A DNA stretch of 64,000 bases from Erodium maritimum (Eukaryota; Streptophyta; Magnoliopsida; Geraniales; Geraniaceae). The position numbers and the translations under genes were made by a program. Shown here one piece after another: positions 2,672 to 64,000 of the stretch (within the stretch, counting starts at the first letter, position 1; the number at the start of each line of letters is the position of its first letter). The stretch spans positions 82,940,523-83,004,522 of the forward strand of contig OY997589.1 in NCBI GenBank assembly GCA_963921825.1, given 5' to 3'. Under the pieces are notes generated by a model that had not been told where the DNA came from, ran no database searches, and was given only the letters and a program-made list of their open reading frames with translations.

Positions 2672-4765
2672 TGTCACGCCCCAAATCCGGTTTTGACCGG
2701 ACTCGAGACGTGAACTAGGAATAATAATTAAATAATAACTAAAAAGAAATTTAATAATGCAATCTCCGCGAAAAACTCAATTCAAATTCAAAGTTAAGAG
2801 TCAACCGCTCGTTTCAACAAAATAACAGAAAATATAGTTTGATACAAAGGGCAGTACGTCTCTAAAACACACAATCTCCCGAAACCTCAAGGATCTCCCG
2901 AGCCCTGGGACCATCTCTAGGTCTACTCATCAAGGAAACTTATACAAACAGTAAACATGAAGGGGGTGAGCTTACACTCAATAGGAAAAAGTAGGAAAGT
3001 AAAAAGAACCCCCGCTTTTACAACAAAAGTTCCGATTAGTACGATTATCCAAAAGACACCACAATCAGAGATCAACAAGAACTGCAATGCTTAATCAAAC
3101 AGTGACTCAAAAGAGCTTAACGGGAAACCAGTTTATTCACCAATAGAACCAACTAAGGAAACACAAGGATACTGTAATATAGATAATTTAAACAGTTGGA
3201 CTTAGATCCACACACAAACCAACACATCGTACCAGAATCCCCTCGGTCACGATGAGACACATATCTTCGGGGCTCCTGGAAATATTCCCACAAGGAACAC
3301 ATATCGTCGGGGCTCCCGGAAGTGCCTCCAAAGGAACACAGATCATCGGGGTGAAACAAGACATCCTCCCGGAAATGTCCTCAAAGGAACACATATCATC
3401 GGGGTGCAAAACCACAGACTCCGCTCCACATACAACCAACGAATCATACAGGAACGCCCCTCGATCCAGAGGAGACACATATCATCGAGGCTCCCGGAAA
3501 TGTTCCCAAGGAACACATATCATCGGGGCTCCCGGAAATGTCCTCAAAGGAACACATATCATCGGGGTGGAACAAGTAATATATCACATCGGAAACAACA
3601 CACAAGCATAGAACAAGTATTCAAGGCAATTCAATCATCACGCACAACTCAACAAATATATCGTACCAGAATATTCCCTCGGTCTATATATCTTCCCGGA
3701 AACGAACATCGGGTTAAAACACAATACCGGAAACGCAACAACACCCGAACGGTGTTAAGCACGAAATTCACGAACAACCGGGCTTAGAACACCTGAACCC
3801 CGAATGCACGGTTCCCAGTGCACGGCCCCCGAGGCACGAGACCCCATGCACGGATCTCGAGGCACGATTCCCGAGGTGCCAAACCGTGTTCCCCAAATTC
3901 CAGCGAGCCTCTGGAATTTGGAGAAAAAATTTCTTTTTCTCCAAATTCGTCCAAAAGTGTTTTAGGTCCTTAATCCAACAAGTTTCATCAAAAGCCCCTT
4001 TATATTAGTCCCAATTTTACATTTTCCCCATATCTCCAAGTTAGGGTTTCAACTCCAATCTTCAATTCCAACGTTTTCTTTACATCTCCTTATAATTCCA
4101 AGTTTGTCTTCTTGTTTCCAACCACACCCACTCCAAAAAAAGTTGATTCATACAAGACCCACAGATTTTAGTTGCTCAAAAACGAAAATAAAAGAGTTCC
4201 TACCGTAGGGAATGAAGAGAGGAGAAGGAATATGGAAGAAAAATGGAATTTCGATGAAGAAATGGAGCTTGGATGAGCTTTCTTCTTCTTCTTCTTCCTT
4301 GAGCAACAATGAAGGTCTCCAAGCTCTTTCTCTCTCTATAGGTTCGGCTAACAAGGTGAGAATGAGCTGAAATTTGTGTCTCATGTGCTCTTTAACCTAA
4401 AGTGGAGAAACCAAATAGCCCATTTTGTCTTGTTTCACCTTTTTGGGAAAAAGTAAGGGCACAAGGGTCTTTTCCCACCTCTTTTCTCCCTTTTAATTAA
4501 ATAATGCCAAATGTCCACATGATGTCATTTCCAATTAAAATAATCTCAGCCGCTTATTTTATTCGATAAAATAATTCGATTCGAGCCCCTATTTGACCAA
4601 ATTTGACTTTTTCCGCGAAGACCATTTTTCGAATGGAAACGACCCAACTAAGCTAACCGTGACGACGACTAAGCTTTTTGGGCCCCGAAAATGTCCCGTA
4701 TGACTTCCGGAGTCATCGGTTGACTTTTCCGGTTCGACAAGGATTGACCGAGGGCGGTTCTTACA
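2672..4765 (-). mobile_element. Solo LTR A of the window's dominant LTR family (2094 bp)
   Basis: Read on the minus strand it begins TGTAAGAACCGCC and ends GGGGCGTGACA, a TG...CA unit. A perfect 5-bp target duplication AAATC flanks it (2667-2671 and 4766-4770). The loop hairpin (read as TGAGTGTAAGCTCA) is at 2967-2980, about 295 nt from the 3' end; its closing pair is a U-G wobble. A candidate splice donor CTACG|GTAGG lies at 4204/4203 on the minus strand; the acceptor position reads TATAAG and is probably lost. Variable block 1 (GCACGG-rich) is about 3790-3880; variable block 2 is the expanded array at 3245-3570. No internal retrotransposon region is attached. Confidence 0.93.
3245..3570. 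repeat. Tandem array of about 36-45 bp units inside LTR A
   Basis: Units contain GGAACACATATCATCGGGG followed by CTCCCGGAAATGTCCTCAAA, repeated about six or seven times with some degenerate or interrupted copies. The equivalent place in LTRs B, E and H holds only one or two copies (CCGATGATATGTGCCC), so the array is a local expansion. Frames of 96-127 codons that cross it are side effects of the repeat. Confidence 0.8.
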
Positions 4766-4793
4766 AAATCTGTTATGTGTCTATTCTTCCATA

Positions 4794-5092: not shown

Positions 5093-5102
5093 TCTCTCGT
5101 AT

Positions 5103-6170: not shown

Positions 6171-6180
6171 TCTCTCGTAT

Positions 6181-8227: not shown

Positions 8228-11003
8228 TGTAAAACCCGCTTCGTTTAAAAGCGTAGTAAAGTGCAACTTGAATCGTCGAGGTGTGAATTTGCAACAAATA
8301 AATTTTGAGAAGGAAAAATCAAAAAAAAAAAAGGAAGAAAGAAGAAAGGGAATTGTTTTGGGTCAGCCTCTTTGCGATTGGGCCGAGACTCATGGCCCAG
8401 CACGCAAGTCTCAGCCCAGTCTCGCGAAACCCTATCACTCAAAAAGGGAAAACGCGTCGTTCCAGTGTCATTTACGCGCACGCGACCCGAGGAGCCGACC
8501 TCTCTCTCCCTTCCTTCTCGCGTTCACTCCTCCTCACGCGAACCAGGGCCGCCACCGTCTGCAGCTCCGGCCACCTCTCCCACCAGCATCATCATTCTTC
8601 TTCGCCGCCCTCACGCTTGTACCGAGCTCGTTCCGGACCCAAACCCACCGGAATCGATGCTGCCTCGCCGGATAACGGTCGGATTCGAGGCCTCCGAGTT
8701 CGTGTCAGCGGCAGCAACCGAGGACCGAGGAGGGTCCGTCCTCCCTCGATGTTTCTTCTCTTCCCCGACCCCGTTTTACCCAGAATCACCTCAGGCCGGA
8801 CTGGGTTGGACGGGAATAGCGAGAATCGACGCCGGCGACCACCTCTCACGCCAGATCTGAGACAGGAAAGGATGGGTCGCGCGTCGACTACCATTGCTCC
8901 TCCCTGACGCTCGCTCAGCCTCGAAAACCCCTTCTCCGAGCTTCCCTGCCTCCACGCCGTACTTCTGACGCCGGAGACTCGCCGGGGAACTCACAGGAGC
9001 TCGCTGGCTCGCCGACTCGTCCTCAGCTCCGGTGAGAATTGGCAGGGATGGGCCTTAGGCCAGACGGGCTTTGGGCCAGCTCTGGTTTTGGGCCAGAAGA
9101 GAACCAGACCGAGAAGGCCTTGGGCCCGTGGGAAGAGTCGGGCCAGCCATACCAGAAGACGGGCTTGGGCCCAGTTCACTTCGCGGGTCAGGCCATGCTC
9201 AACAGTGGGTCTGGATCCGAACCGGGTCGGGTCTGGACCGGGTCAGGGCCTGGATCCGGGTCAACCCAAGGCATTTAAAACCATTTTAAAAACCAGATTA
9301 ATTAATCAACTTGATTTAATTAAAGGTGAGATTTTGGTGATTGGACTTAAGCATCTAAGGACCTTGGGACGTTTATCTTTATTAATTTGGACATTTTATG
9401 TGTCAAACCTAGACGAGACTTTGCCCGAGAGCGAAGATTTTGGACCCGAGCTAGAAGAGCAAAGATCACGCCGAGACTCGAGTGAAGAACGGAGTAGTGA
9501 CCACCGGGCTTCATCAAAGCGTTGAGGGCAAGACCTCGAGGTAGGGAAAGCCTTAACCTCTCGTTTATGATGCTTAGTATGCATGCGAGGTTAATAAAAT
9601 TGGAAGAGGTCCTAGATATGCATATAGGATGCGAATAACTACCTTTATCGTCTTTCAATTGCTAATAACCGGAAGAGTCTAGTGGTGACCGATTAGGATG
9701 CCAATCACTAGTGTAATTCGCTTTCAATACTTGGGATATGATTGTCTGGTAGAGGAGCCTTGGCAAAGCCCTCGGATTAGTTGCGTGATAGGATCACATG
9801 CTTGGTTGTTGATTGCTTAGTGGATAGGCTAAAGAGTCTAATGAAACTAGCGAAATTGCATGCTTGAATGCTCTTTTGAAGGCTTTATGATTTAGTTGAT
9901 CATACTCGTATTTGCTCGTTTATTGTATTCGGTTGATTACTTGTTTTACTTGATTGGTTGTTGGGGGTATCGAGTATGACTGGTTGTACCGAGCGGTGCA
10001 ATCAGGTGATCGATGCCCCGGTGGTTCGAAACTGGTAAGTGAACGGTAAGTTGGGATTGTGTATTTGGTGTGCTATGGTTGTGTGATTCGTGTTCTATGT
10101 GTTGTGGTGAATTGGTGATGGTTGAACCGTGATCCGTGTACTTCGTGTTGTGGTGAATTGGTGATGGTTGAACTGTGACCCGTGTACTTTGTGTTGTGGT
10201 GAATTGGTGATGGTTGAGCCGTGTGTGGACTTGGATTGGTGGTTGTTGAGCTTGTATTACTTCATATTTCGGTTGAGTGCGCTATTCAATTATTAACTGC
10301 TTATCATTAAATTGCCCACGTGTGCGCTTCCTATGGGGGTATGGCCCTGGGTTCCCGATGATCTAAAATCCCTTGGAGACGTTTCTGAGACTTCCGACGA
10401 TATGTGCCCTGAAGGGTGTTTCCGATAGTCTCAATGATATGCGTCTCCTCTGGATTGGAGGGAAAATCCGAGAGGACACATAAGATGTGGATCGGAGGGT
10501 GGTGACTTCATGTGCCACGGCATTGGTTGGTTATTCTATCGTCTTTGATTGTTAAGAACTATATGTTAACTTTATCAATGAATTTACTTGTAATGTTATG
10601 AACTACCTTGTGGATTGTGTTGGTGAATTATGGATCTTGTGGGCATTGCCGTTGATGCTTTGAGTTTGAGGTTCCCTATGTTATGCGTTTTCCCTACTGA
10701 GCGTAAGCTCACCCCTATGTTTTACTGTTGTGTCTACAGGCTTGAGTGAGGAGTAGAAGCTTGGGCGCTTCTCGGTGTGGGTACTTGTTAGCGACTTCGT
10801 ACTTTACATTTTTATGGTTTGAACCAAACAGTGGAGAATTATTATTACACCCCTAAAGGGTTATTTATGTTTTGAACTACAATTGTGGATTCGAGTTGGT
10901 CATTGGAGTTTTCTGGAACTTGATTTAGATTGTTATTTCATTTATTTATATTTTTACTAGTCATGCCTCGAGTCCGGGCAAGAACCGGATTTGGGGCGTG
11001 ACA
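8228..11003 (+). mobile_element. Solo LTR B inserted in BAHD gene 1 (2776 bp)
   Basis: Starts TGTAAAACCCGCTTCG and ends TTTGGGGCGTGACA. It has the GTAA hairpin at 10698-10711 and a putative acceptor TCTACAG|G ending at 10739. A candidate donor CTCCG|GTGAG is at 9031/9032. Variable block 1 (CCGGGTC-type words) is about 9205-9265. Unlike most family members it has no matching 5-bp duplication: the left flank is AGCCT and the right flank GTGGC. Its 5' end resembles F and G more than A, C, E and H. A short frame reads through the left junction from the acyltransferase. Confidence 0.85.
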
Positions 11004-14462: not shown

Positions 14463-17400
14463 TGTAAGAACCGCCCCCGGTCAATCCCGGTCGAACTGGT
14501 GACTTTTGGCAAAGTTTGACTTTCGGCCGAAAAAGTCAACCAATGACTCCGGGAGTCGTTTGGGACCTTTCTGAGGCCCAAAAAGCTTAGTCGTCATCAC
14601 GGTTAGCTTAGTTGGGCCATTTCCTTTATTTTGACTATAATATTTGAAAAGTCAAATTTTGGTCAACCAGGACTTTTTATCGACAATTTCGACTTAATTT
14701 GGAAGTGCTGGAAATTCCTAAGAGCTAAGTGGTCCTCACTAGGACACTTGTCCCTTTTGGCTTGGAGGAGAAGAAAATGACCTCTATTGACCTTTTTACC
14801 CTCACTAGTTGTCCTTAACTGGATAAGAGCTAAAGGGTTTTTTGGTCTTTAACCATTTTAGGTCCTTTTAAAGCATTTGAGACAACCAAATCAGCTCTCA
14901 CATCACTAGTGCAGCCGAAACCAAGGAAGAGAGAAAGAGAGCAAGGAGAGCCTCCATTGAAGCTTGGTGAAGAAGCAAGTGAAAGGGAGAAGCTTTGTGG
15001 GTGCCTTCTTCTCAAACCTTCACTAAAACCTTCCATTCTTCATCCTCTTCTCATTCTAAAGGTAAATACACTATCACAATCTCTTTTCAATTCAATTTAA
15101 TTCATGGGTTTACTTTGGGTTTTGCCTAAACTAGCTAGGTTTGATGTTCCTTGTGGTTGATTGTTGTTAGATGATACTTTGGAGAAGTAGATGATTGAGT
15201 TTTGTTTAAATCATTGAGTTTTGGTTGTTTTTGGTTTTGAAATCTCTTGGGTATTGGTTGGTTTGTTGAATCCTACCTTGGGTAATGGAGGATTGAAGTG
15301 ATTTAACTGTTTTGGAGGTTGTTTGTGACTGAAAATGGAGTTTCTGATGCAATTTTTGTGAAAATGGAGCTGAAGGAAGGAGAAAGGCGAGTCTGTCCAG
15401 ACCCGTCACGGATCCGTGACGGCACGCGTCACGATTCCGTGATGTCGTCCGTGACGGTTGGTCTCACGGTTCCGTGACCCGATCCGTGGCAGACCTGTTT
15501 TGGGTCCTTTTTGGGTGTTTTCATCTTTTTCGATCTTGTATTTTGAACCGTTTGTTTGGGGACATTACCTTAGGTGTTTGCCTCTTAAAATTCTTTGTTT
15601 AGCCTTTAATCTTGGTATTATTTTTTATCCAAGACCTTGGACCCGAGCTCGACGAAGGACGAGGACGTTGGTACCACGAGAGAGGACGAGGAGGAAGCTA
15701 GCCAGGACGTCAGTAGCTAGGAGTATTTAAGCTTAAGAGAATTAAAGGTAGGGAAAAGTCGTAAACTCCTTTCTTAATTTAATAAATGGTATTAGTATGC
15801 CTATAGGATAATTAATAAACGGAAAGGTCCTAGCTTGCATATATGATGTGATTCACTAGAATAGCCGCTTTCAATTATATTAATAACCGGAAGAGTCTAG
15901 TATGCATATAGGATGTGATTCACTAGTTTAATCGCTTTCAATTCTTGGGATATTGTCGTGCTAGTAGAATGGCCATGACGAGCTTTAGCATTGTTTGTGT
16001 TTGTGTGACTTGTGATCAATGGTATTAAACGTCGATGCATGTTTCAATCTTGAGTTAATATAAGAGTCATACCAAAACGAGACGAATCATGATTGTTGTA
16101 AAGTGAATATGTGAGTATGATATGATTGAATGAATGAATGGGTGAATCTGTTATGGTTGTGCCTAATGATATGATCGGGTGAATGATAGACCTATGAGAC
16201 GTGATTGGTAAGTCATGCCGGTAAGTTGGTTGATAATACGTGTTCTATGTGACGTGTAGAGGTAAAATTGTTAGGCTCAGTAAGCTGCGGTTGAACTATG
16301 ACGTTTGTTGCGTGTTATCCTCTTGATGTGTGTTCCAAGAGGATTTGTGTTCCGGTATGGTACCCACACTGAGGGAGTATGCCGGTGTGGGGTAGTACCT
16401 AGACCGATGGTTGTGTTTATGCCCCGAGGGATTTTCCGGGAAGACCGACGGTACATTCCGGTGTATTGTATTATTGTTGTACCCCGATGCTGTGTGTCCG
16501 GGAAGACATCGAGACCGATGGAAATTCCGGTATGATGTAGTGTTTCACCCCGATGCTGTGTGTTCGGGAAGACGTCTAGACCGATGTATATTCTTGTCAC
16601 GCCTCAAATCCGGTTTTGACCGGACTGGAGACGTGAACTTAAAACAGTAAATAATAACAGCAATTTAATCATGAAAAAGGGTCTCAATAGCAGGTTAAAA
16701 CAGTTTAGAATCAGTAAAGACTGTACATCTCTAGACAACACTAGCTAAGACTCTCACTAGCTCCCTAGCTCCGAGAATCCCGCTAGTCCAAGTCCCGCTC
16801 AAAACCTGTAACACAACAAGGTAAAGGGGTGAGCTTTCGCTCAGTAGGAAAAGTAGTTAAGGTTATGAACATCAGTTCAATACCACGAGTAACCGTCCAA
16901 TTAGGGAATACTAGCAAGGCATAGCTATCAACAACGCACAAGGAAAAGTACCAACCACTAATCACCCTCGTGAGAGCAAAATCACCATTAATACAACGCA
17001 CAAAGCCAATCAGCACGCACTGCACACACAACAAAACAATACAAAACTTAGTACAACCGTCCTCAACCTCACTGGCTATCACAGCCCGTCCCATTTATAT
17101 CGTACCGGAACACACAACATCGGTCCCAATATCTTCCCGTTACGTAGAATCGGGGTAACATCCCGGACCGGAAATCCCTCAGTCGGACATCTTCCTGTCA
17201 CGTAGAATCAGGGCCTCACGCATATCGGACCGGCACATACCTCGGTCGTATGCCTTCCCGGACCACATAGTATCGCGGTAATGGTTAAACCATCCTCGTT
17301 CTCAATACTCTACACCGGCATACACTCTCAGTGTAGGTATCGCACCGGACACACCTCTAATTGGAACACACAACAAGAGAATAACACGCAGCACAAAGCC

Positions 17401-19292
17401 AAGGTCCGACCACGGTATGGCAACTAGGACCTTTCCAGTTATAATTATTACCTAACATGCATACTAGTAACTTTATGTAATTAAACTGGTATTCGCTACG
17501 TTCCCTACCTCGAAAGTAGTCAACAATCAACTCTTAGCTACTGACGTCCGGGCCTACCTCCGGTCTTTTCCACGATCGAGGTCAAAGTCTGATTTAAACA
17601 AGTAAAGGTAGTAATCAGTCCCGGTCCAGTTCGAAATAGTTCTCTAATTTAACGTAGAAGCCCTTTTTTAACTTGATTAGTCTAATTTAATTAATTAAAT
17701 CTGATTTTATTTAATGAAGTAGTCAAAAATGATCTTGCCCGTATCCGACTCGGATCCAGACCCAACCTGGATCCAGACCCGGTCCGAACCCGGACCCGGA
17801 CCCTGACCCGAGTCTAGAACCGACCCTAGACCAGACCAGATCCAGACCTGGCCTGGCCCAAAGCCCAGCCTGGCCGAGGCCCAGCCTGACTCAAGGCCTA
17901 GCCTGGCTCGAGGCCTAGCCTGGCCCGAGTTAGTCCTGGCCCGAGGCAGTCCTGGCCCAGCCTGGTTCGAGTCCGGCTCGGTCGAGGGTAACGCATGTGA
18001 GGGTTCGGTGTTCGACAAAGCGGCGGCCGGCGGTTGGGGAGCTCGTAAAACGGGATATAAAGTCGGGGAAGGAGAACGGCCGAACGCATCGCTCACCCAG
18101 GTCTATTCCCTTGGCTCCGGCGCGGTGCGATTCGAGCCCGGAAGAGAAGAGCCAGTGCGAGGCTTCCGACGGCTGCGGCGACCAGATCTGGTCCGCGTAA
18201 CTCGCTCGACGGCACGGCTCAGTTCTGGACACGGGCTTGGCAACGGGGGGTTCATCGTCGGTCTTGTATCGACGTGGCTCGATTCGAGATCGGGAGCGGT
18301 AGCAGAGCTCGCCGGCGGTGGGAGGTCGAGAGAGCGAGAGGGAGAGAGAGAAATCTGAGAGAGAGGGAGGAAGAGAGAGAGAGAGACGCATCGGGGTGTG
18401 TGCGTGAAGTGAGGGAGGAGAGGTGAACCCTAGTCCCTGTAGCGCTCGCCCACGTGCGAGTCACACGCGTGAGGGAGGCGGGCTGGGCTAAGTCTCGGCG
18501 TGGGCTTGGGCTTGGCAGGTTGGCCTGGTCCAGCAGACTGGGCCTGGTCTGGCTTGGCCCAAGGTCCTTCTCCTTTTTTTTCTTTTTCTTTTGAATTTGG
18601 CCCAAAATTCAACCCTTTAATTATTAATTCTTTTAACTGGGGAGGTCTTTACAATTCCGGTATGATGTACTTGCTTCACCACGATGTTGTGTGTCCGGGA
18701 AGACATCTGAACCGAGGGTAAATGCTGGTATGATGTAGTGATGGATTTGTATTTGAGGATTGGATTCCTGAGTGCTTGTCTATCGTTTTGTGTCGTTGAG
18801 TCCAAGTGTCTTTTGTAGTGGACTTAATAGTAAGATGTCTTGTTACTCGTTGTTCACTTGTTTTGGTGCCATTATTGATATCTTGTGCCTTTTTAATCTT
18901 TAATTGTGTTCTCAATTTTCATTAAGAGTTGTTGACTAAATATTTCTGACCCGGGGTGAGAGTCCTATCTTTTACTACTTTTTCCTACTGAGCGTAAGCT
19001 CATCCCCTCTGTTTTACTGTTTTCAGGTTTCCTTGGTAAGTAGGCAATAGGACATCTCAGGGCTCAGGAGCTCATCGAGGGTCCGGGTGTTCATTGTTTA
19101 GAGACGTACCTTCTTTTTGTATTAGACTTTTCGCATTGTATCACTTCTTTTGAGCTTTTGACTCATAGTTTCAGTTTGTATTACATTTTTTTACTTGGAA
19201 TTTTACTAGTTGAAGTTTAATTTTATTAATCTTACTTTTTATTACTTAGTTCACGTCTCGAGTCCGGTCAAAATCGGATTTGGGGTGTGACA
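14463..19292 (+). mobile_element. Solo LTR C (about 2766 bp, interrupted by nested LTR D)
   Basis: Starts TGTAAGAACCGCCCCC and ends TTTGGGGTGTGACA. Perfect duplication CGGAG at 14458-14462 and 19293-19297. LTR D occupies 16595-18653. The GTAA hairpin is at 18989-19002; the putative acceptor TTTTCAG|G ends at 19026. A strong donor candidate TCTAAAG|GTAAAT is at 15061/15062, following a purine-rich leader. Variable block 1 (CACGGATCCGTGACGG words) is about 15405-15480; variable block 2 (CCCCGATGCTGTGTGTCCGGG, about 70-bp period) spans the D insertion. Confidence 0.93.
16595..18653 (-). mobile_element. Solo LTR D nested in LTR C (2059 bp)
   Basis: On the minus strand it runs TGTAAAGACCTCCCC ... 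TTTGAGGCGTGACA. The target duplication is ATTCT (16590-16594) and ATTCC (18654-18658), one mismatch. The hairpin loop is GAAA (16830-16843), 235 nt from the 3' end, and the acceptor TTACAG|G ends at 16806. Variable block 1 is the GACCCGGATCCAGACC-rich stretch at about 17750-17820. I found no convincing donor. GA/CT-rich sequence at 18300-18420 corresponds to the leader of G and I. Confidence 0.9.
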
Positions 19293-29600: not shown

Positions 29601-31465
29601 TCCCGATGATAAGCGCCCCGAAGGGTTGTTTCCGGTCGCCTCAATGTTATGCGTCTCCTCTGGATTGTAGGGAAAATCCGAGAGGACACATCATGTGGAT
29701 CGGAGGGTGGAGACTTCATGTGCCACGGCATTGGCTGATTTATCTATTACCCGTGTTTGTTAAGATGTATTTTGTTGACGTTGTTGTTGATCTTATTGAG
29801 TTGAAGGTCCACCTTGTTATGTGTTTTTCCTACTGAGCGCAAGCTCACCCCTACGAGTTTATTGTTGTGTTTACAGGCTTGATAGAGGAGTAGAGGCTCG
29901 GGAGCTTCTCGGTGTGGGTGTCCATAGAGACTTCGTGTTTATCTTTATTTCTGTTGGACCTGATTTTGTGAAGATTTATTATTACACCCCCGGAGGGTTA
30001 TTCATGTTTAAACTAGATTTTGTGGATTGGAGTTTATTATTCAAGATTTTCAGGAACTAAATGTTGATTTATTAATTTATTGTCTTCTATTACTCGTCAT
30101 GCCTCGGGTCCGAGCAATAACCGGATTTGGGGCGTGACAGCCATTATCTTCAAAGCTGATTTTGAAAAGGGTTTTGATAATGTCAATTGGAATTTTTTGA
30201 TGAAACTCCTAACAAAAATGGGTTTTGGCTTCTTATGGAGGCTATGGATGATCTCTTGTTTTAAGGCTCACATGTCTGTTCTAATTAATGGATCCCCCTC
30301 TCCTGATTTCAAAATTTTCAAAGGTCTTAGACAGGGTTGTGCTCTATCCCCTCTCATGTTTGCTTTGGTTGCTGAATGTCTAAATCAAATCATGAAGGCA
30401 TGACTCTTTCATAACCAGTTTCAAGGAATTCAAGTTGGTAATCCTGGTCCTTGTATTTCCCACTTGCAATATGCAGATGATTCCATTTTCTTCATCAAAG
30501 CCTCTACAGAAGGTGTTACAAATCTGAAGAATGCCCTTACTATGTTCAAACTCTCAGCAGGATTGAAAGTCAATTACAATAAATTTGTCATCATCCCAAT
30601 GAATCTATCAAATTTAGAAGCTCAACAATACTCAGAATTGCTAGCTTGTGAGATTGATTCATTCCCCTTCATGTACTTAGGTTTCTCTTTAGGAGCTAAC
30701 CCCAGAAGGTTACTTTCTTGGGCTCTAGTGATCCAAAAATACAAGAAATGCCTTGGTCTATGACAAGCAAAACTCCTCAGCTTTGGTGGGAGACTCACAC
30801 TAATCAAGACCACTCTCAGCTCAATACCTCTATATTATCTCTCATTGTTAAAGGCTCCCAAATCAGTTCTCAAATCCTTGGAAAACTGGAAAAGAAGGTT
30901 TCTCTAGCATGGATCTTCACAAGCAAGGGTCTTCTGCAAAGTGGGGTGGTCACAAGTTTCTAAACCTAAAGCTCAAGGAGGTCTTGGAATTAAAAATTTG
31001 AAAGTTATGAATGAAGCTCTCCTTGGAAAATGGTGGCGGATATTTGCTTTTGAAGAAAACTCTATCTGGAAGCAGATTGTTTGTGCTAGATATGGAGATG
31101 GATCAAAAGATTGGGATCTAGCAAACTTCAAAGAACTTGGCAGTGCAAACTTTTTTACTCATATAATTGCTTTAGCTCATAATCCAATCTTTGCAGATCA
31201 TTTCAGTAAAAAGGGCCTCTCCTGTACTTTGGGAAGTGGAAATAGAATCCTATTTTGGGAAGATATCTGGTAGGGGGACCTGTCATTTAAGATGTTATTT
31301 CCAAGAATTTTCTTATTGGTCAATTCAAAGAAATCAGTGATCTCTGAATTATGGGAAGATGTGGTGTGCGATTTGGACCTCCAAAGAGATCCTAGAGGTT
31401 GGGAATGTCAAGAATGGGGGCTATTATCTACAATTATAAGAATGGGGACCTCCGAAGAGATCCTA
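26640..31465 (+). pseudogene. L1-type LINE ORF2 fragment (reverse transcriptase), split by LTR E
   Basis: The plus strand encodes the region between endonuclease and reverse transcriptase, then the reverse transcriptase, then the C-terminal zinc-finger region. Recognisable pieces are VGPDGFTLKFFR (27237), DYRPISLMGGPYKILTK (27408), KADFEKGFDNVNW (about 30150), GLRQGCALSPLMF (about 30327), the catalytic YADD (30470-30481) and LGSGNRILFWEDIW (31230). Stops occur, for example at 27531 and 30401, and there are frameshifts. The endonuclease domain is missing on the left. LTR E (27602-30139) sits between two codons of the polymerase. On the right the LINE runs straight into the truncated BAHD copy 3 at about 31465. 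Confidence 0.9.
27602..30139 (+). mobile_element. Solo LTR E inserted in the LINE reverse transcriptase (2538 bp)
   Basis: Starts TGTAAGACCCGCTTCCGG and ends TTTGGGGCGTGACA, with a perfect duplication GCCAT (27597-27601 and 30140-30144). The hairpin at 29834-29847 has a GCAA loop, the only GCAA in the window. The acceptor TTTACAG|G ends at 29876. The donor candidate TCTAGAG|GTAATG is at 28140/28141. Variable block 1 (CACGGATCCGTGA, CACGGCTCCGTGA words) is about 28485-28620. The sequence from 28850 to 29340 is very close to the matching parts of B and H. Confidence 0.95.
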
Positions 31466-43336: not shown

Positions 43337-46187
43337 TGTCACGCCCCAAATCCGATTTTGACTGGACTCGAGACGTGAACTAAAACAGTAATAAAATTTA
43401 AATAAAAGTAAATTTGAAAAGTTTAAAATAATAATCTGCGGTTCATAAATTTGAATAAACGAGTCCACAACTCTTAAGTAAACTTTAAAGACAATAAATA
43501 GCTCACAAAACACAGTGTACAAATTTAGTTCCAAAAACGACAGCACGTCTCTAGACCTACTAGCCTAGGACTCTTGCCAGCTCCCAAGCTCGGCCGTGTC
43601 CTGCTAGTACAAATCCCGCTCAACACCTGAAAACCGACAATGTAAGGGGTTAGCTTTCGCCCAGTAGGGAAAGTAGTTAAGGTAACGAACATAGGCTCAC
43701 CACCACGAGTAACCGTCCAATTAGGGCATACTAGTACAAAACGACTAACTACCGATCGGGGTTCATAGCCAATTTACCAAAACACACAAACCGACAACTC
43801 TCATTCAATAACCACTAACCAAACAACAAACGTATCAAAACACAGAAGCCATCAGCACACACATCCCATACTACAATCCTTGAACTCCGCCGACTGTACA
43901 CAGCCCGACATCATCATATCAAACGGTAAGTCAAGTATCCATCGGACTACCTCTCGATCCAGAGGAGGCGCATAACGTCACAAAGACGCATAACGTCGAG
44001 AATGCCGGAGACGTCCTTACGAGGACGCATTCGTCTGGACTCTCGGAAACGTCTCCAAAGGACCATAGATCATCGAGGTTGAAACACGGCACCCAGTGCC
44101 CATCACGACCCGTAGACCCAACACGACCCTTAGGCCCAACCACGACCCGTAGGCCCACTATGCTATGATTTGGCCCGTCGGCTCCGACCCGTCGGCCCTA
44201 TGCAATATGATATGATGTGGCCCGTCGGCCCTATGCAACACGACCCGTAGGCCCCAACCATATTATGGCCCGTCGGCCCCAAACACGACCCATAGGCCCA
44301 AACTCAACCGGAATACCATCCTCAAGGAACACACAACAAAATAACAATCACGCATCGAAATGCCACAGATCAAACACGGCTCACCAAGCCCAACAGTCTT
44401 ACCACAAATACACGGCACGTCGGTCTATCACTCACCCGACCATCACACAACCAAGGGTTCAGATCAACACAACCACGGCACACTCGCCCATACATAACAA
44501 CAAGATGCTCAACGGATATACTAATCTTGTCTATTAACCCTAACGACACCGACTCACACGGCAGGCAACTCAAACAACAACAGACAATCAATCAACACGC
44601 AACTTACGGCTCGACATGGCCGATCTACCAGCACGGCAATTCCCAAGTATCGAAAACAGATAAAGCAGTTAACTAGTGAATCCCGTCCTACATGTTACTA
44701 TGACTCGTCCGGTTATTATCTGATATAGACGTCTTTCCAGTTTTATTAATCCTAGCATGCATACTAGTAACTTTCTGCAATTAAACCGGTATCCGCTACT
44801 TCCCTACCTCAAGACGATACCACATCAGCGTCTCCTAGCTGCTGACGACCAGCCCAACACCGTCTTCTAGGGCGAAGTCCACGTCTGGGTTTAACTCCGG
44901 TCTTCTCTTCGATAGAAGCCGGACTCTAGTTTAAAACAAAAGGCACAATTAAAACCGGTTTCACAAAATGATTTAAAAGGTTACGACAGATTTGATTTAA
45001 GTTCAAAAGTTGTCTTTTAGACTCGAGCGGGCTAAAAGCAATAATACGGCGAATCGGGTTCAGGCACCCGAGCACAGAACCGGTGCACGTTTTCCGAGAC
45101 ACAGGTCACAATGCACGGATTCTTGGGCACGATTCCCGAGGTATGGGTTTCGTGGCACAAATCACGAGGTAACCGATTCCCGTTCCGCTTTTGTCCCATT
45201 CAAGTTCGATCCAGGTTCAACAGTAAACCAAACTTAATTAAAACATGATTTTTATTTTCTTCCAAAACGATTTCTGTTTCTCGTTTAATCAAAACTGAGT
45301 TGTTTTTAATCATTTTCCCCTTTCAGATCTTGTTCTTTACTTTTCTGTTTCAATAAAACTGAACTCAACTTGTCCAGATCCAAAGAGAGACTGAGCAACA
45401 CTTACCAGATCCAGAGACGAACGGGTAAAACCAAGAAAAGAGAGAGAGAAGACGTTCGGGAAAGTTTCCGACCACCGGCGAAGATATCGCCGGCGACCGA
45501 ACCCCAAGGGTGAGAATCTCACCTTTAAGGGGAAAAAGACGACGCGTGGAGGTCGAGGTTGCGCCCGTGGCGCGGCGGAAAGGACGGCGGCTCGGTCCGA
45601 GCACCGTCTCCCGCTGTAACGAGCGTGGAAGGCGGCGGGAGCTCGGATTGAGGGAGAGGGTCGTGAGGACGTCGGCGGCGCGTCTGACTCGGGGGAGACG
45701 AAGATGAGACGGAGAGGGGACTCGGGAGAGGGAGAGGAAGTGGCCGAGATCGAGATGAAGGAGAGTTGTGGAGATGAGGGTGGAGGGGCGGCCGGCGATG
45801 GAGTTGGGTTGAGAGGAAGGGATCGGGATGAAGGAGACGTGGGGGGGGAGAGGCTGCGCTGAAAAGGAATTTAGGGTTTTACCCTCAATTTCGTGCTTTA
45901 ATAGCACAGGCCTAACGGGCCTCAGATAGAAGGGTTGGGCCTCTCGGCCCAGAAGCCAGTTCAGCTAGGTCAGGCCTGGCCAGGTGTGTTGGTTGGGTCT
46001 AGTCCGACCCGGTCCGACCCAATACCCTTTTCTTTTTTTTTGTTAGCTCTTCTTTTTCTTATTATTTATTTATTTATTTTATTTTTTTAAACGAATTAAA
46101 AACCAAAATCGATTTGAAAAACAACCTCGACGCTCTGATCGAACACAATTAAATAAAATCAAACTTTTTAACGAGGCGGACTTCACA
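43337..46187 (-). mobile_element. Solo LTR G inserted in ORF1 of retroposon 2 (2851 bp)
   Basis: On the minus strand TGTGAAGTCCGCCTCG ... TTTGGGGCGTGACA, with a perfect duplication TGACG (43332-43336 and 46188-46192). The hairpin at 43650-43663 has a GAAA loop and one mismatched pair; there the branch-point-like word is CTAAC. The acceptor TTTTCAG|G ends at 43627. The donor candidate TTAAAG|GTGAG is at 45523/45522. Variable block 1 (about 45060-45160) has GCACGG words; block 2 (about 44090-44320) is an array of CACGACCCGTAGGCCCA. Confidence 0.95.
44090..44320. repeat. Array of CACGACCCGTAGGCCCA-like units in LTR G
   Basis: Roughly ten degenerate 16-24 bp units alternating between CCCGTAGGCCC and CCCGTCGGCCC. 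This is the LTR G form of variable block 2. Confidence 0.75.
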
Positions 46188-46192
46188 TGACG

Positions 46193-48150: not shown

Positions 48151-48172
48151 TATATATATATATATATATATA

Positions 48173-50846: not shown

Positions 50847-53629
50847 TGTAAGACCCGCCCCCGGTCGATCCCGGTAAAACCGGTGAATCCTAGCTAAGTT
50901 TGACTTTCGGCCGGAAAAGTCAACCGATGACTCGGAAAGTCAGTCGGGACCTTTTTGGGGCCCAAAAAGCTTAGCCATTAGCACGGTTAGCTTAGTTGGG
51001 TCGTTTCCTTCAATTTGACTGTAATATTGTTAAAGTCAACCGTCGGTCAAACTCGGGCTTAATATCGGTTATTTGTCAATAAATCTTGGAAAGCTGGAAA
51101 ATTATTAAATTAGAGTGACCTCACATGACACTTGTCATGCTTGGCTTGGAGGATGAGTTTTGGGGCTTCAAATGACCCTCATACCCTCCTAAGTTACCTT
51201 TAAAGGGATAAGACCTTAATGGCTTTTGAGTAAATTGACATTTTAGGTCATTTAAAGGAAAGAGAGCAATAATTCAGCCCATTTGTTGTTGTTTCAGCCG
51301 AAAATCACAAGGGAGAGGAGAGGAGGAGCTCACTTGCTTGAGGAAGAAGATAGAGAGGAAAGCTTGGATTTTGAAGCTTGTTCTTGGTCCCTTTGCCTTC
51401 ATTTTCACTCCATCTTCTCCATCTCAACTATCTAGAGGTAAGGATGCTCTCAAATCTCTATTTCTTCCACTTCCAATCTTTGGGTTTTGTGGGTTTTGGC
51501 TTAAAAGTTGAAGACCTTGCTCTTTGAATGTTTGTTTGGAGAAGAAATAGTGAAGTAGGTTGTTGGATTGAGTTTTGGTTGAATTTTGATGAACCCATTG
51601 AGGGTGTAGTTGTTGGGTATCTTTGGTGGATTATTTTGGAGCTAGGAGAGTTTAGAAATGGAGTTTGTGTTGGGATTTTCGTGAAATTCGAGTTGGGGAA
51701 GAAAGGGGAAGGAGCTGGTCAGGTCTGATACGGAATCTGACCCGGACCGGGCCAGGTACCGGCACGGTAGGCCGCACGGAACGTGCCTGGTACCGGCACG
51801 GCACCCGGCACGGAACGGGCCTGATACCGGCACGGCACCCGGCACGGAACGGGCGGGAGTCTGGCACGGGACCTAATACGGTCCGTGTCGCTCACCGGGC
51901 CGGTCTGTGTCGTGTTCTGTTCTGGATTCCGGGCCGGCCTGTGACAGGGTCCGTTTGGCATTCCGGATCAGATCCCTAGAGCTCAAAACCCTTCCTTTTA
52001 GCTCAATTTGATTCCCACTTTTCCTTTTCAAACCTTGATCCATTTCTGAACATTGTGGTGTGTTTTGAGGAGAAGAACACTTGGTTGAGGAATCTAATTT
52101 GTGTTCTTTTGGTGGTTCAAAACCTTGGAACCAAGCTAGGAAAGGAGGAAGAACGTGGACACGAGTTAGAGGAGCTTTTATCACGCCGGGACCCGAGTGA
52201 AGAACGGAGAGGCGACCACCGAGCTTGTCATCAGAGTGTTGAGAGGAAGACCTCGAGGTAGGGAAAGCCTTAACCTCTCGTTTACGATGCTTAGTATGCC
52301 TGCTAGGTTAATAAAATTGGAAAGGTCCTAGAAATGCTTATAGGATGCGAATAACTAGCGTAATCGTCTTTCAATTACTAATAATCGGATTTGTCTAGTG
52401 GTGACCGATTAGGATGCCAATCACTAGTGTAACTCGCTTTCAATACTTGGGAATTGATTGTCTGGTAGAGGAGCCTTGGCAAAGCCCTCGGATTAGTTGC
52501 GTGTTAGGATCACATGCTTGTTTGTTGGTTGCTTAGTGGATAGGCTAAAGAGTCTAATGGAACTAGTTGAATTGCATGTGTGTATGCTCGTTAAAGGTTT
52601 TATGATTGGTTGTTTATACTCGTACTTGCTCGTTGATTGCATTCGAATGATTACTTGATTTACTTGAATGGTTGCTTGGAGCATCGAGTATGACTGGTTG
52701 TACCGAGCGGTGCAATCAGGTGATCGATGCCCCGGTGGTTCGAAACTGGTAAGTGAACGGTAAGTTGGGATTGTGTGATTGATGTGCTATGTTTATGTGA
52801 TTCGTGTACTGCGTGTTGTGTGAATTTGTGATGTGCGAGCTATGGTTGATATCGAGTTGGTGGTTTTCTGAATTTGATCGTTCTGTGTTTCTGATTGAGT
52901 GCGTTATTCAATTATTAACTATTTATCATCTAATTGCCCAAGTGTGCGCTTCCTATGGGAGTATTGCCCTGGGTTCCCGAGGATCTAAAATCCCTTGGAG
53001 ACGTTTCTGAGACTTCCGATGATATGTGCCCTGAAGGGTGTTTCCGATAGTCTCAATGATATGCGTCTCCTCTGGATTGGAGGGAAAATCCGAGAGGACA
53101 CATAAGATGTGGATCGGAGGGTGGTGACTTCATGTGCCACGGCATTGATCGGTTTATCTATTGCCTGTGATTGTTAATAGCTTTATGTTAACTTTACTGA
53201 TGAATTTACTCGTAATATTATGAACTACCTTGTTGACTGTGTTGGTGAATTATGGATCTTGTGGACATTGCCGTTGATTCTTTAGAGTTTAAGGTTTACC
53301 TTGTTTTGTGTTTTCCCTACTGAGCGTAAGCTCACCCCTGTGAGTTCATTGCTGTGTTTACAGGCTTGATTGAGGAGTAGAAGCTCGGGAGCTTCTCGGT
53401 GTGGGTGCGTGATAGAGACTTCGTACTTTTTACTTTTAATGTGTCGAACCAAAACTTGTGGAGGTTTATTATTACACCCCTGGAGGGTTATTGTGTTTTG
53501 AACTCAGTTTTGCGGATTTGTTTTCATTATTGGAGATTTTCAGGAAGTAAATGTTGATTTATTATTTTATTGTCTTCTTTTACTCGTCATGCCTCGGGTC
53601 CGGGCGATAACCGGATTTGGGGCGTGACA
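50847..53629 (+). mobile_element. Solo LTR H (2783 bp)
   Basis: Starts TGTAAGACCCGCCCCCGG and ends TTTGGGGCGTGACA, with a perfect duplication GATAG (50842-50846 and 53630-53634). The GTAA hairpin is at 53321-53334 and the acceptor TTTACAG|G ends at 53363. The best donor in the window, CTAGAG|GTAAGG, is at 51437/51438. Variable block 1 is an array of GGTACCGGCACGGCACCCGG-type words at about 51745-51960. Downstream of 52140 it is close to B and E. Confidence 0.95.
51745..51960. repeat. Array of ACCGGCACGGNNNGGCACGGAACG words in LTR H
   Basis: Variable block 1 of LTR H. The array keeps several frames open on both strands (60-104 codons), which I take as a by-product of the repeat. Confidence 0.8.
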
Positions 53630-54539
53630 GATAGGGTACCACGCAAGCCAATGGTGACTCTGTTTTTGAATCTAAATCGCGACAGATCATAGAAAAAGAG
53701 CAGCATCCTATACCTCGGAATCCCGCAGCCCCGGAGAAGATGAGCAACAAACAGGACCAGTGGACGACGACGACCGCAAGCTGGAGACAATACGATAGTT
53801 GATTCTAGCGCTGGACCGCGATGCGAACCAGCGTGCAGGACGTCCTCCAAAACAGACGCGGTCGTGACACCGACGACGCTTGTCACGCCCCAAATCCGGT
53901 ATTGACCGGACCGAGACGTGTGTTGATGAAATTAAATAATAACAATTTAAAACCATTAATAATTACTGAAAATAAATAAAGAGTCCAACAGGATTCCAAA
54001 TCTTGAGTCTCAAGCTCAATCAATATAAAGTAGAAATAAAACACAATACGTCTCTAATAGCAATAAGTAAAACCCCGGGCATCCGCTAGCTCCCCAGCTC
54101 TGCGATGTCCTCTACTCCAAGTCATAAGTAATACTTGTAGACAACAGTAAGGGGTGAGCTTGACACTCAGTAGGAAAGACCATGAAAACCGCTTCTTTAC
54201 AGATTTACCGAAGAACGCAACCCAAGGTTTAAAGTTTAACATTAAAACAAGGTTTGATAAAATCGAAGCGACGCTTGACCATTTTAAAACAATACTCAGT
54301 TATCTGGTCGTTCACTGGACCAACAATCTCCACCCTTAACCCGACAATAGTCATAAAATCAAGCAACACAGGAGGGAACAACCAAAGAAACCACCAAAGT
54401 CACAGGTATCGTAACACTCAAACACAACCAAGTTCAATCCAAACCAAAATAATATTAACACAGGCAATTCACACAAAGCACGGTCTCGGGAGCAACCCGC
54501 TCGGCCCGGCGAAGCCATACGCTCTTTCCCCAACATAAA

Positions 54540-60808: not shown

Positions 60809-62493
60809 TTTTTTTATCAGCAAAGCATTATATAAAAACCTACTCTTTGATATAAAGAATATGTGATGAATGTATAACCTAAGGAGCATTCAACGAAAGG
60901 AACCTCAACTATGAAGCCTCAACACACTAAGGATGAAATACAACAAATTACAGAACCCAACAAGGGATGAAGAACCTGAAACCAAGAATCTCAATAGTAG
61001 GAGAAAACCATAACAAAGAGGTCTAATAACCTAGATTTAACAAACTTTAAGCACAAAAAAAATCAGGGTCTAATAACCAAAATTTAACAAACATGAAACC
61101 CCAACCAAAAGTAAGGTCCAAAAAAAACGAATTTGACAAAATTGAAGCACAAAGAACCTCCTAGAAAAAATTCCAAACCTTAATCGAACAAGTAAAAAGA
61201 AATCTATCTCATCGAGACCACTTACTCAACGAGTAAAATGGACATCGACACGCAGGCAGTCAACACTATTGAACGAAAGAGATAATTCGGTTGTCAAACA
61301 CCACAGGAACACTTAAACCCCTAGAATTTAGAACATGACGACTTCAGAAAAGTCCTAAAGACAAAAAACCACCCGTTGGGGCCAACACCACAATCAACGA
61401 GCCCATGCCAGCAAGAGGCTATGAAACAGCGAAGTCGAACTGAATTTCAATCTAGGATAAGAGAAAAGCTTTCTACTAGAACGAAAAAAGAAAGGAAGGA
61501 GAGGAACCTTAACAATCGGATGCCCTTACCATATTAGCCAAAACGTCAGGGGAACCGAGGGTGAAACTCGAGTTAAGTCTTCCGATTCAAGAGCCAGTAA
61601 CCCCTCGTCCACTAACAACTAGTGAGGGTCTGAAGAGGAAGACCTGTAGTAATACCGAGCAGGAGCCATCCCCAATTCGAATCGAAATGACACCAAAACC
61701 AGCAAAGAAGCGAGTTGCCAATGGAACTTCAGCAGCGCACAAATACCAGAAGAGATCTGCGATAATCCCATCAAAGAGACGAAAGAAAGCCTCGCATGAG
61801 CAAATAAAAACACAACCGACTTTGGCCCTTTACCACATCCAACCAGAAGAAAGATGAGGAACAGATCATCGTCAATCCTCACCTAAAGAGGTGGAGAAAG
61901 ACCTCCTACTCAGATTTAAAACACCACCATCACCCTAGTCGGAGGAGAGGACTGGATCCGAACACACCAACAACAACCACTAAGAACGTGTACCCAACAG
62001 TTTGCAGCCGAATCCTCCCCGAGACTGATCCGACCTCGCCAATGGCCAACACACTACATGGCGATGGTAGAGAAGGCAAAAATTCCCAAACATACAACCG
62101 TACCCAACCACAGCCGAAACAACCAAAAATTAACCCAACCCAAGGATTTACGGAGCCGGTCAGAGAAGGAAACGGTTGGAGCCGGTCTTAGGGATGACTA
62201 AGACAAGGACAATCGCTCTAGAATCCGACGATCCAAGCCCAGTGTGAACCGGAGGAGCCTAGATCCAAAGCAAAAACGAAGAGCTCCACAATGAATCCAA
62301 GCCGGAAACACTTCCCACAGAGGAACACTCACCTTAGCTAAAGCACGGTGCATTAACGATCAAACTCACCAGATCAGACGATCGACAAATTGAAACGAGC
62401 CCCGCAAGTTGAAGCTGAATCAGCACAAACGAGGCATGTAGAACACCTCAAATGCACTGCTCGCCGGCAAAACCCCTTGCTCGCCACTAACTC
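60809..62493 (-). mobile_element. Retroposon 4 (minus strand), interrupted on the right by LTR J
   Basis: Oligo-T at 60809-60815 followed by ATCAGCAAAGCATTATAT is the same 3' terminus as at 944 and 32608. The sense strand (minus) is CT/T-rich at the 3' side and GC-rich towards 62493. No ORF1, endonuclease or reverse transcriptase is recognised. The 5' end is beyond the window, behind LTR J. Confidence 0.5.
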
Positions 62494-64000
62494 TGTCACG
62501 CCCCAAATCCGGTTTTGACCGGACTCGAGACGTGAACTAAAACAATAATAAATTTAAATGAAAGTAAAGCCACAACAAGCCTTTAATAAAAATTTAAAAA
62601 CTCTGAAAATCATCACGAGTCAACAACTCGGTAAAACAATCAGCAAAAAGGTTTAATAAAAGGAATTAGTACGTCTCTAGATAAACTAGTCAAGGACCCT
62701 CGCTAGCTCCCGAGCCTCGAGTATCTGACTAGTACACATCCTGCTCAGGACCTGAAAAACAACAAGATAAGGGGGTGAGCTTTCGCTCAGTAGGAAAATT
62801 AGTTAATGTTATAAGCAAACGCTCACCATCAATGGTAACCGTCCAATTAGGGCATACTAGTACAACACACAACTAATTTCCAACGGAACTCTTTGCCACA
62901 AACCTCAACTCAAGACCAAACCACACTCACAAACATACTCAAACGACCAAGCACAAACTGCAACCAGAACACTTAACAGGTCATCAAGCATAATGTAAAC
63001 AGTAAAAACACATACACGTCCCGTACCGCAGTCCCCTACTCCGCTGGCTGTCCACAGCCCGACTCCATCATATCACACCGGAACACACAGCATCGGCCTA
63101 GATATCTTCCCGTCACTACGACTTAGGGAACGATCACAATACGTCATAGTTCAACACGGCTTACCAAGCCCAACAATCTTACCACAACCAGTCACGTCGG
63201 TTTATCAACCACCCGATAATCACACATGCAATGATTCACATCATACCAAGCATGACACACTTGCCCAAAGATAATCACAACACGTTACACCGAGTAATAT
63301 CACAACATGCTTCTCAACCTATTAACGCCTAAAACACACATCATGCATCTCAATCAATCAAACAAGGCATTTCAATCAACACGTAACCTAAGGGCTTGCC
63401 AAGGCCCGCATGCATTTCTACCAGCACAACAATCCCAAACTTACGGCTCGACATGACACGTAAGCTATCCCTCAGTACACTCTTTCCTCACCTCCTAATC
63501 ATGCAATTCTAACAGTTTACATTAAGTAAAAACAACTTATAGGCATACTAGTAACTTTCCACAATCGAACCAGTATCCGCTACGTTTCCTACCTTAAGAA
63601 GAATCAACAGCTACGTCTCCTAGCTGCTGACGTCCTGGCTCGCTTCCTACTCCACTTCACGTTGTCCTCGTGTTTCCTCCTCCGTCGATCTCGGTCCGAA
63701 GCCTTGGGTCAAAAAACAATTCTCGTATTAAAACAACTTCCAAATTGCATTAACGAGAAAAACACCAACAAAAAGCCCGAGGGTCCACACATGGGCCAAA
63801 AGGACAAATTGGGCCCAAACTAGGCCCAATTCGGACAGCCCACACTACTGGAAACTGGCCTGGAATGTGACCCATTCCATGCCACTCAGAGGGCCGGAAT
63901 GTGACCCATTCCGTGTCACTTAGAGGGCCGGAATGTGGCCCGTTCCGTGCCACTCAGAGGGCCGAAATGAGACCCTTTCCATGCCTTGTTCCATATCAGA
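62494..64000 (-). mobile_element. Solo LTR J, 3' part only (window ends inside it)
   Basis: The 3' end on the minus strand is TTTGGGGCGTGACA at 62494. The perfect GAAA hairpin is at 62776-62789 and an acceptor TTTTCAG|G lies just downstream on the sense strand (about 62755). Conserved core words (TAGGAAACGTAGCGG) follow at 63580-63595. Variable block 1 is the tandem array at about 63850-63990. The 5' end and the target duplication lie outside the window; the base before the LTR is C, with CTAACTC preceding. Confidence 0.85.
63850..63990. repeat. Tandem array of about 37-bp units in LTR J
   Basis: Nearly four units of GGCCGGAATGTGACCCATTC followed by CATGCCACTCAGAG. It is variable block 1 of LTR J, with a sequence unlike the same block in the other copies. 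Confidence 0.85.

Follow-up and report, generated by a model that had tools for sequence, protein, structure and literature searches.

A conserved hairpin at the apparent 3' end of a predicted intron within retrotransposon LTRs of Erodium maritimum

Ten LTRs with a common hairpin

The window analysed here, 64,000 nucleotides of Erodium maritimum contig OY997589.1 (assembly GCA_963921825.1, forward-strand positions 82,940,523 to 83,004,522), contains ten units, A to J, which are long terminal repeats (LTRs) of an LTR retrotransposon. Each of the ten terminates in CGGATTTGGGGCGTGACA or differs from it by a single base; allowing up to three mismatches, this sequence matches nowhere else in the window. 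An exact 5-bp target duplication and a TGT start are found for A, C, E, G and H, and a duplication with one mismatch for D; none was found for LTRs B and F. LTR F terminates in CT instead of CA. A TATA-like box close to the LTR start was seen in F alone, in scans that included five LTR starts. Junctions between an LTR and a primer-binding site, presumably that for initiator tRNA-Met, number 2204 genome-wide (reversed control, 0); the site is absent from the 20 nt beyond the LTR end in all ten window units. Three pieces of an element from a second LTR family, not the window's own, examined for the Ty3-type gag-pol domains and chromodomain of Tekay/Del-like chromoviruses, have matches to gag, zinc knuckle, RVP_2, RVT_1 and SH3_Tf2-1, and none to a chromodomain. 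The element is probably Ty3/gypsy.

A first-pass annotation had described a hairpin, TGAGC-GNAA-GCTCA in the LTR sense direction, in every unit. It is indeed present in all ten, nine being recovered by pattern and unit I, with its five-base loop, separately:

2967..2980, minus strand: hairpin A (LTR 2672-4765, target duplication GATTT)
10698..10711, plus strand: hairpin B (LTR 8228-11003)
18989..19002, plus strand: hairpin C (LTR 14463-19292, with D nested within it; target duplication CGGAG)
16830..16843, minus strand: hairpin D (LTR 16595-18653)
29834..29847, plus strand: hairpin E (LTR 27602-30139, target duplication GCCAT)
40965..40978, plus strand: hairpin F (LTR 38426-41252)
43650..43663, minus strand: hairpin G, one pair broken (LTR 43337-46187, target duplication CGTCA)
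53321..53334, plus strand: hairpin H (LTR 50847-53629, target duplication GATAG)
54155..54169, minus strand: hairpin I, five-base loop GTCAA (LTR end 53881, start not found)
62776..62789, minus strand: hairpin J (start not found; LTR end 62494, with 1507 nt of the window remaining upstream of it)

Six units (B, C, D, E, H, J) have exact TGAGC-GNRA-GCTCA, A and F one change from it, and G two. Scanning the window with up to two mismatches gave 16 matches versus 1.8 expected and a maximum of 5 among 100 shuffles; these comprise nine units, four opposite-strand readings of the palindrome (B, C, E, H) and three matches elsewhere. In the 763-Mb genome there are 11,053 exact occurrences of a 21-nt hairpin motif. 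The 3' end of the hairpin lies 235-313 nt from the LTR end, as first reported. Two other early descriptions needed narrowing: stem changes mostly preserve pairing, with unit G as the exception (TGGGC/GCTAA, second stem pair broken), and the loops, initially described as all GNRA, are so in 65 of 73 gap-free family-1 rows of a larger set and not in the other eight. Five-base loops recur in the LTRs L051, L056 and L096. The flanks had been thought to vary far more than the hairpin; immediately beside the stem, TTT, CTA and CC are as invariant as the stem itself, and the conserved stretch is about 26 nt, wider than the hairpin (TTTYC-CTAC-stem-loop-stem-YCC).

Conservation of this kind could reflect shared descent only, the block being functionless and alike through LTR kinship, since related elements gave rise to all the units. 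Yet the block is common to LTR families whose remaining sequence aligns in short islands only: between LTRs B and F, which otherwise share such islands or weak similarity, it is among the best-matching segments (89%, 28 nt), and it is retained in 69 of 70 LTRs picked by their primer-site junction. Descent without function is considered very improbable.

Whether the hairpin is selected as RNA is less clear. Selection on RNA structure, as first proposed, drew nothing from the covariation test suggested for it: none of the five pairs changed on both sides among 70 distinct sequences, and shuffles behaved alike, the test having low power here because there is so little variation. Stems are fully paired in 55 of 73 family-1 rows, and folding in sequence context is modest. 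In the second LTR family the stem has 7 bp, with loop GAAC in four of five aligned rows and GAAT in one. Mirror counts of stem variants genome-wide were rejected as proof of structure, their results being mixed and one mirror pair lying in a CTG/CAG context: A-to-G at 708 versus T-to-C at 28 speaks for a G-U pair, whereas the second mirror pair, with 378 pair-breaking versus 111 pair-keeping, runs in the opposite direction. Rfam gave no match above gathering score in the window, and searches of viral contigs gave 0, 0 and 2 matches, the two showing by eye no LTR-like surroundings.

One reading of these results is that the palindrome acts at the DNA level, for instance by binding a dimeric protein, and that the RNA hairpin is incidental. 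The absence of covariation, the modest folding and the perfect DNA symmetry of most family-2 rows (TGAGCG-AA-CGCTCA) would agree with this; the asymmetric GNAA centre retained in most family-1 copies and the constant spacing to a downstream CAGG (see below) would not, and the mirror counts pull both ways. Overall, a purely DNA-level role seems quite unlikely.

A splice-site-like block and predicted introns

The hairpin is followed by sequence resembling the 3' end of an intron: the order is hairpin, with CTCAC in its 3' arm, then a T-rich tract, then CAG/G. CAGG stands downstream of the hairpin in 74 of 84 rows and TAGG in one; in all 75, the A of CTCAC is 22-30 nt upstream of the acceptor, and pyrimidine content between CCC and the acceptor averages 70%. 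Genome-wide, the motif together with CAGG is found at 29,791 places, its reversed control at 9. Upstream, seven of the ten units have a donor-like GTAGGG or GTAGGA, giving GT...CAG borders; the search for a donor drew a blank in A, C and I. GT...AG borders, a branch-site-like motif (CTCAC, judged against the U2-type branch-site consensus) and the T-rich tract are all features of U2-type introns. U12-type introns have an ATATCC or GTATCC donor and TTCCTTRAY near the acceptor; that class was rejected, the donor here being GTAGGG or GTAGGA. The predicted introns are:

9541..10739, plus strand: main intron of B, predicted (1199 nt, GTAGGG...CTACAG; placed from intron-less LTRs L101, L108/L109 and L111)
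16806..17508, minus strand: main intron of D, predicted (703 nt; from alignment with intron-less L108)
17589..18096, minus strand: first intron of D, predicted (508 nt, GTGAGC...AATCAG; missing in L108 and, by alignment rows, L109)
28845..29876, plus strand: main intron of E, predicted (1032 nt; missing in L101)
39741..41001, plus strand: main intron of F, predicted (1261 nt)
43627..44807, minus strand: main intron of G, predicted (1181 nt)
52258..53363, plus strand: main intron of H, predicted (1106 nt)
62752..63592, minus strand: main intron of J, predicted (841 nt, donor GTAGGA)

The borders of the first intron of D were chosen by eye and are uncertain by one or two bases. ATG density is 20-31 per kb in the main introns versus 0-11 in the exon stretches counted; the predicted first intron of D is ATG-poor (3.9 per kb). 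AGG is present at both intron borders, which permits deletion by microhomology. Splicing control had been among the roles originally suggested for the hairpin, and its place is indeed at the apparent 3' splice site of an LTR-internal intron.

LTRs without the predicted introns

Four LTRs, representing three apparently independent cases, precisely lack predicted introns, versus thousands which have them. L101 is a solo LTR without the main intron, flanked by a perfect 5-bp target duplication (CCCTC); it is the single match to the E-type junction with up to three mismatches (control, 0). L108 and L109 are the paired LTRs of a single element, which has the target duplication GTCCT and a primer site, and both lack the main and the upstream intron; absence of both stretches from both LTRs of one element implies that the loss preceded integration. 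L111 is one further LTR without the main intron.

The F-type junction had 11 matches, six of them intron-bearing LTRs with TTTGAG in place of TTTCAG; another, L105, was rejected as an intron-less LTR, having no similarity to the LTRs compared, and L106 is of doubtful status. The A/C-type search gave eight matches, with NA or TA before AGG in seven, as in an altered acceptor, and TAAGG in one. No intron-less copy of A, C or I type was found, and the broad B/E/H-type junction had no matches, in both cases with patterns that exclude T at the fifth base ahead of the junction and are therefore blind to CTYGAG junctions.

The precise intron-less copies suggest that RNA really was spliced at these borders, the introns presumably having been lost by splicing before reverse transcription. 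Another possibility is that DNA deletion through the short AGG border repeat produced them, and that the block has some other role, with no splicing involved. The presence of AGG at both borders and the small number of intron-less LTRs, known from DNA, are compatible with this. It would have to account, however, for identical borders in three cases and two LTR types (a one-sided comparison, with a count of precise absences only) and for the loss before integration in L108/L109, and such an origin appears distinctly unlikely.

The hairpin might also be a packaging or dimerisation signal which, being intronic, would be found in unspliced genomic RNA only. This is compatible with the intron, agrees with the rarity of intron-less copies, and would suit a GNRA loop kept in most copies (65/73); but L101, L108/L109 and L111 integrated without the hairpin, and its fixed distance just upstream of the 3' splice site is better explained by splicing. 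A signal of this sort is considered unlikely.

A possible splicing limiter in the LTR

The explanation considered likely is that the LTR contains a leader intron whose probable branch site is overlapped by the hairpin, which may hold splicing back and so preserve unspliced genomic RNA. The LTR intron itself is well supported, at the level of DNA; gating of splicing by the hairpin is an inference. The spliceosomal intron, some 0.7-1.3 kb long, would run from donor GAG/GTAGGG to acceptor TTTNCAG/G, about 210-290 nt upstream of the LTR 3' end, with a shorter first intron in some LTRs. The main intron would have the hairpin as its 3' end: the hairpin's 3' arm, GCTCA, and the following CCC together contain CTCAC, the putative branch site, at 22-30 nt from the 3' splice site; pairing of CTCAC within the hairpin may keep splicing incomplete. 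Spliced RNA, with few upstream ATGs, would then serve for translation, and unspliced RNA for packaging and copying. The fullest version of this model can be held only tentatively: a very abundant plant retrotransposon with one or two complete introns per LTR, a branch-site-pairing hairpin as splice limiter, two RNA pools, and rare leakage of spliced RNA giving rise to intron-less LTRs.

Foamy virus and HTLV-1 have a splice donor in the R region of the LTR, and incomplete splicing leaves genomic RNA; the intron of such viruses takes in a large part of the genome, whereas here donor and acceptor would both be inside one LTR. Among plant LTR retrotransposons, Ogre (Ty3/gypsy) and EVADE (Ty1/copia) have functional introns yielding spliced and unspliced RNA, a likeness to what is predicted here; as far as the available portion of the source describes them, those introns make subgenomic RNAs (in EVADE, by removing the protease region), whereas the present one would be wholly internal to the LTR, before the primer site (PMC12786077). 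BARE1, in the part of its description available, resembles the present proposal in that splicing divides RNA between translation and replication, and in an intron U-richer than the exons, but its 104-nt intron is near the end of gag, outside the LTR (PMC3735527). LTRs of other groups likewise have short conserved or palindromic blocks amid variable sequence (PMC3601003, PMC2829016); unlike the hairpin block, those in the accessible text are promoter, polyadenylation and integrase motifs (PMC3601003) or, in Sirevirus, palindromes that recur upstream of the TATA box (PMC2829016). For plant Metaviridae, that text states that LTR models could not be built (PMC3601003). The literature searched, judged by titles, abstract openings and the best-ranked entries listed, and with most subscription journals outside its scope, contained no earlier report of a plant LTR-internal intron.

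How one LTR-retrotransposon transcript is balanced between translation and reverse transcription is described, in the text available, as a major question (PMC3735527); an intron entirely within the LTR, if real, would be an unusual answer. Because copying of spliced RNA removes the intron from new LTRs, genome sequence alone would give a readout of splicing leakage, countable in other plants. If the model is correct, leader exons plus intron would account for part of the length of this family's long LTRs, LTR annotation would change for such elements, and solo LTRs would bring ready-made splice sites with them, possibly affecting nearby genes.

Identity and setting of the ten LTRs

The ten units that carry the hairpin TGAGC-GNAA-GCTCA (A to J) share the 3' end CGGATTTGGGGCGTGACA or a one-base variant of it, and a search of the window with this end allowing up to three mismatches gave matches at the ten unit ends only. 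Units A, C, E, G and H are solo LTRs, since each has a TGT start and an exact 5-bp target duplication; the duplication of D has one mismatch, none was found around B and F, and searches for the LTR start of I and J found none. In the surrounding genome (763 Mb, 40 contigs), a primer site is joined to the same LTR end at 2204 junctions (1089+1115; reversed control 0), with the form ...GACA-ATT-TGGTATCAGAGC in nearly all primer-site places among the matches listed. From the shared ends, the target duplications and these junctions it follows that the ten units are LTRs of an LTR retrotransposon. For a related element, from a second LTR family (family 2, the window-type LTRs being family 1), three pieces gave the following domain matches: gag, zinc knuckle, protease, reverse transcriptase and Tf2-type SH3.

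Unit D is nested in unit C in opposite orientation (16595-18653 within 14463-19292). Unit F lies between 308-bp direct repeats, 95% identical (38121-38428 and 41252-41559); this insertion junction is odd in having such repeats, with no 5-bp target duplication seen. Other features of the window are:

24920-26218; 7319-8229 with 11005-11483; 31482-32573: transferase-family gene (Pfam PF02458, 'Transferase family'), which we take to be of BAHD type, with two more copies, both partial, of which LTR unit B splits one; this gene and the repeats present point to a plant genome
48602-49363: 22-nt units such as TGATAAAACCAGTGTATAGTGT, arrayed in tandem inside 289-nt repeats, with relatives near 5.5, 36.9 and 42.1 kb, scattered across the window
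46310-47092; 32955-33644: ORFs matching CCHC zinc knuckle (PF14392) and RRM (PF00076) domains, judged by eye to be possibly LINE ORF1 remnants
56482-57396: ORF with a match to the NAM-associated C-terminal domain and sub-threshold matches of Myb/SANT-like type

Conservation and folding of the hairpin

The first-pass annotation had reported the hairpin in all ten units, and each of its coordinates was confirmed. The exact 21-nt form CTACTGAGCGNRAGCTCACCC has 11,053 genomic copies (5495+5558; reversed control 0). In LTRs chosen without regard to the hairpin (the first 70 primer-site junctions among the matches listed, 100 of 2204), the block was present in 69 of 70, starting 269-339 nt before the LTR end; it was located by similarity with up to 7 edits, a search that favours like copies, and the same search gave no block match in L042. 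In another copy (L041) a deletion runs through the hairpin loop.

In the 73 family-1 rows that have no gap, conservation covers about 26 nt, TTTYC-CTAC-TGAGC-GNAA-GCTCA-YCC, within which the second loop base varies most freely (T35, A19, C19, G0), and 55 of the stems are fully Watson-Crick. Family-2 LTRs, which end in TGAAATTGGGGCGTGACA or a near variant in random stretches, typically have GGTGAGC-GAAC-GCTCACC, with a stem two pairs longer; no hairpin was found at one of six such ends (L028, 3589). A strict GNRA loop, as originally described, is unsupported: the loop is GNRA in 65 of the 73 family-1 rows, the others being GTCA (3), ACCA, ATAA, GAAC, ACGA and CAAA, and in none of the five aligned family-2 rows (4 GAAC, 1 GAAT).

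Selection on pairing had also been proposed, and covariation gave it no backing. Among 83 aligned sequences (70 distinct, without L041) none of the stem pairs had changes on both sides, and 97.1% of cells were paired, vs 96.9% in shuffles; there was no excess of compensatory changes, an outcome that the first-pass annotation had itself named as refuting its proposal, though low variation leaves the test little power. The isolated 14-mer has a folding energy of -6.2 kcal/mol. When the hairpin is folded together with its surroundings (161 nt in all), the median pairing probability at the centre of the stem is 0.28 (at least 0.5 in 30 of 77 sequences), and with shuffled flanks 0.20 (35 sequences). 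Over the whole genome, counts of one-base changes to the 21-mer give mixed evidence for pairing: at the first mirror pair, the pair-keeping A-to-G change occurs in 708 copies, which may come from few lineages, vs 28 for its pair-breaking mirror, and at the second the pair-breaking G-to-A has 378 vs 111 for the pair-keeping C-to-T, a comparison confounded because the G-to-A site is in a CTG/CAG context, where methylation affects mutation. Selection on the hairpin as an RNA structure is plausible and unproven.

Predicted introns and intron-less LTRs

The hairpin is followed by CCC, a T-rich tract and CAGG, in that order. Of 84 rows, 74 have CAGG and one (L057) has TAGG; a TAGG in L015, the row with a CTCAC distance of 45, is sited further down and was excluded. 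In these 75 rows the predicted splice point comes 22-30 nt after the A of CTCAC, and TGAGCGNNNGCTCA followed by CAGG at a set distance was found at 29,791 places (13662+16129; reversed control 9). Comparison of LTRs B and F shows matching stretches in a common order: first an A-rich and a CT-rich one, then CCAGATCTGAGAC and its neighbours, then CTYGAGGTAGGGAAAG and TAGTATGCATGC; next come two weaker matches, of 76 nt (75%) and 126 nt (69%), followed by the hairpin block (89% over 28 nt) and the final 65 nt (83%).

Units B, D, E, F, G and H have GAG/GTAGGG (slash, putative splice point), a sequence resembling a 5' splice site, and J has AAG/GTAGGA; no donor of this type was found in A, C and I.

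Predicted main introns, ending at acceptor CAG/G
B: 1199 nt
D: 703 nt
E: 1032 nt
F: 1261 nt
G: 1181 nt
H: 1106 nt
J: 841 nt

ATG density is 20-31 per kb in the main introns, vs 0-11 per kb before the donor (B, E, F), in predicted second exons (D, F, G) and after the acceptor. The predicted first intron of D has only 3.9 per kb, which counts against a simple picture of ATG-rich introns.

Splicing of the intron, if combined with occasional copying of the spliced RNA, would be expected to leave intron-less LTRs. Genome-wide searches used preset E-type and F-type exon junctions. The E-type junction, with up to three mismatches, was found at one place (control 0): L101, a complete 1521-bp LTR with a perfect 5-bp duplication (CCCTC), which is 88% identical to unit E before the junction and 78% after it, and lacks the E intron, the gap falling at the intron borders. 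The F-type junction was found at 11 places (control 0), three of them true junctions (L108, L109, L111). L108 and L109, 5.3 kb apart, are the two LTRs of one element, with GTCCT duplicated on both sides and a primer site after the 5' LTR; their identity is 95.2% across a compared length of 484 nt, and both lack the main intron. In the alignment rows both also lack an upstream stretch of unit D (508 nt, borders GTGAGC...ATCAG), the 5' LTR aligning with D through both junctions; sites like this first acceptor are present in F (AATTAG) and G (AACTAG). The predicted first intron of D is less certain than the main intron, because L108 and L109 differ from D and F by further insertions and deletions. 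L111 is also without the main intron; it retains sequence on the upstream side of the first acceptor, and an additional deletion lies ahead of its LTR end.

Among the other F-type matches, six are LTRs that retain the intron and show a C-to-G change at the acceptor, and one has no similarity to the LTRs compared. A further match, L106 (G000:C1:112927050-112927600), is unclear: an F-type last exon and LTR end are preceded by 214 nt unlike any exon 1 seen, ending TTTCGAG, which may reflect splicing from a different first exon.

L101, L108/L109 and L111 apparently represent three independent losses at the same GT...AG borders. Deletion of DNA through the shared AGG could possibly produce such LTRs, but would have had to recur for the three losses; RNA splicing before reverse transcription appears to account for them best.

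A possible role in splicing

A 2025 review describes plant LTR elements as generally without introns, Ogre and EVADE being notable exceptions (PMC12786077); BARE1 has separate RNA pools and splices out an intron of 104 nt close to the gag end (PMC3735527); and in sunflower two expressed elements give spliced isoforms (PMC7730604). Conserved LTR motifs in other groups include short inverted repeats, TATA and polyadenylation signals (PMC3601003), and Sirevirus LTRs have palindromes (PMC2829016). Among the papers listed by the literature searches, none was seen to report an intron lying wholly inside the LTR of a plant element, most subscription papers being outside the reach of these searches.

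Of the roles first suggested for the hairpin, splicing control gains from its position at the predicted 3' splice site of the intron and from the intron-less LTRs; the covariation and the strict GNRA loop of the original interpretation are unsupported. Transcription would start upstream in the LTR (a TATA-like box was found near the LTR start in unit F only), giving a leader of ATG-poor exons with one or two introns, from which some 1 kb of ATG-rich sequence would be lost when the main intron is spliced out. The 3' arm of the hairpin would be the most likely branch site, and its pairing could restrain splicing. In 42 of 63 LTRs (e.g. L036, L037) the longest complement in the 110 nt that follow the predicted splice site is GAGCTT, which is complementary to the loop AA and part of this arm (mean longest complement 5.7 nt vs 4.7 shuffled) and may be an alternative pairing partner for the hairpin. 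Unspliced RNA would have to persist for replication, since hairpin-bearing LTRs number more than ten thousand, vs four intron-less LTRs from the junction searches.
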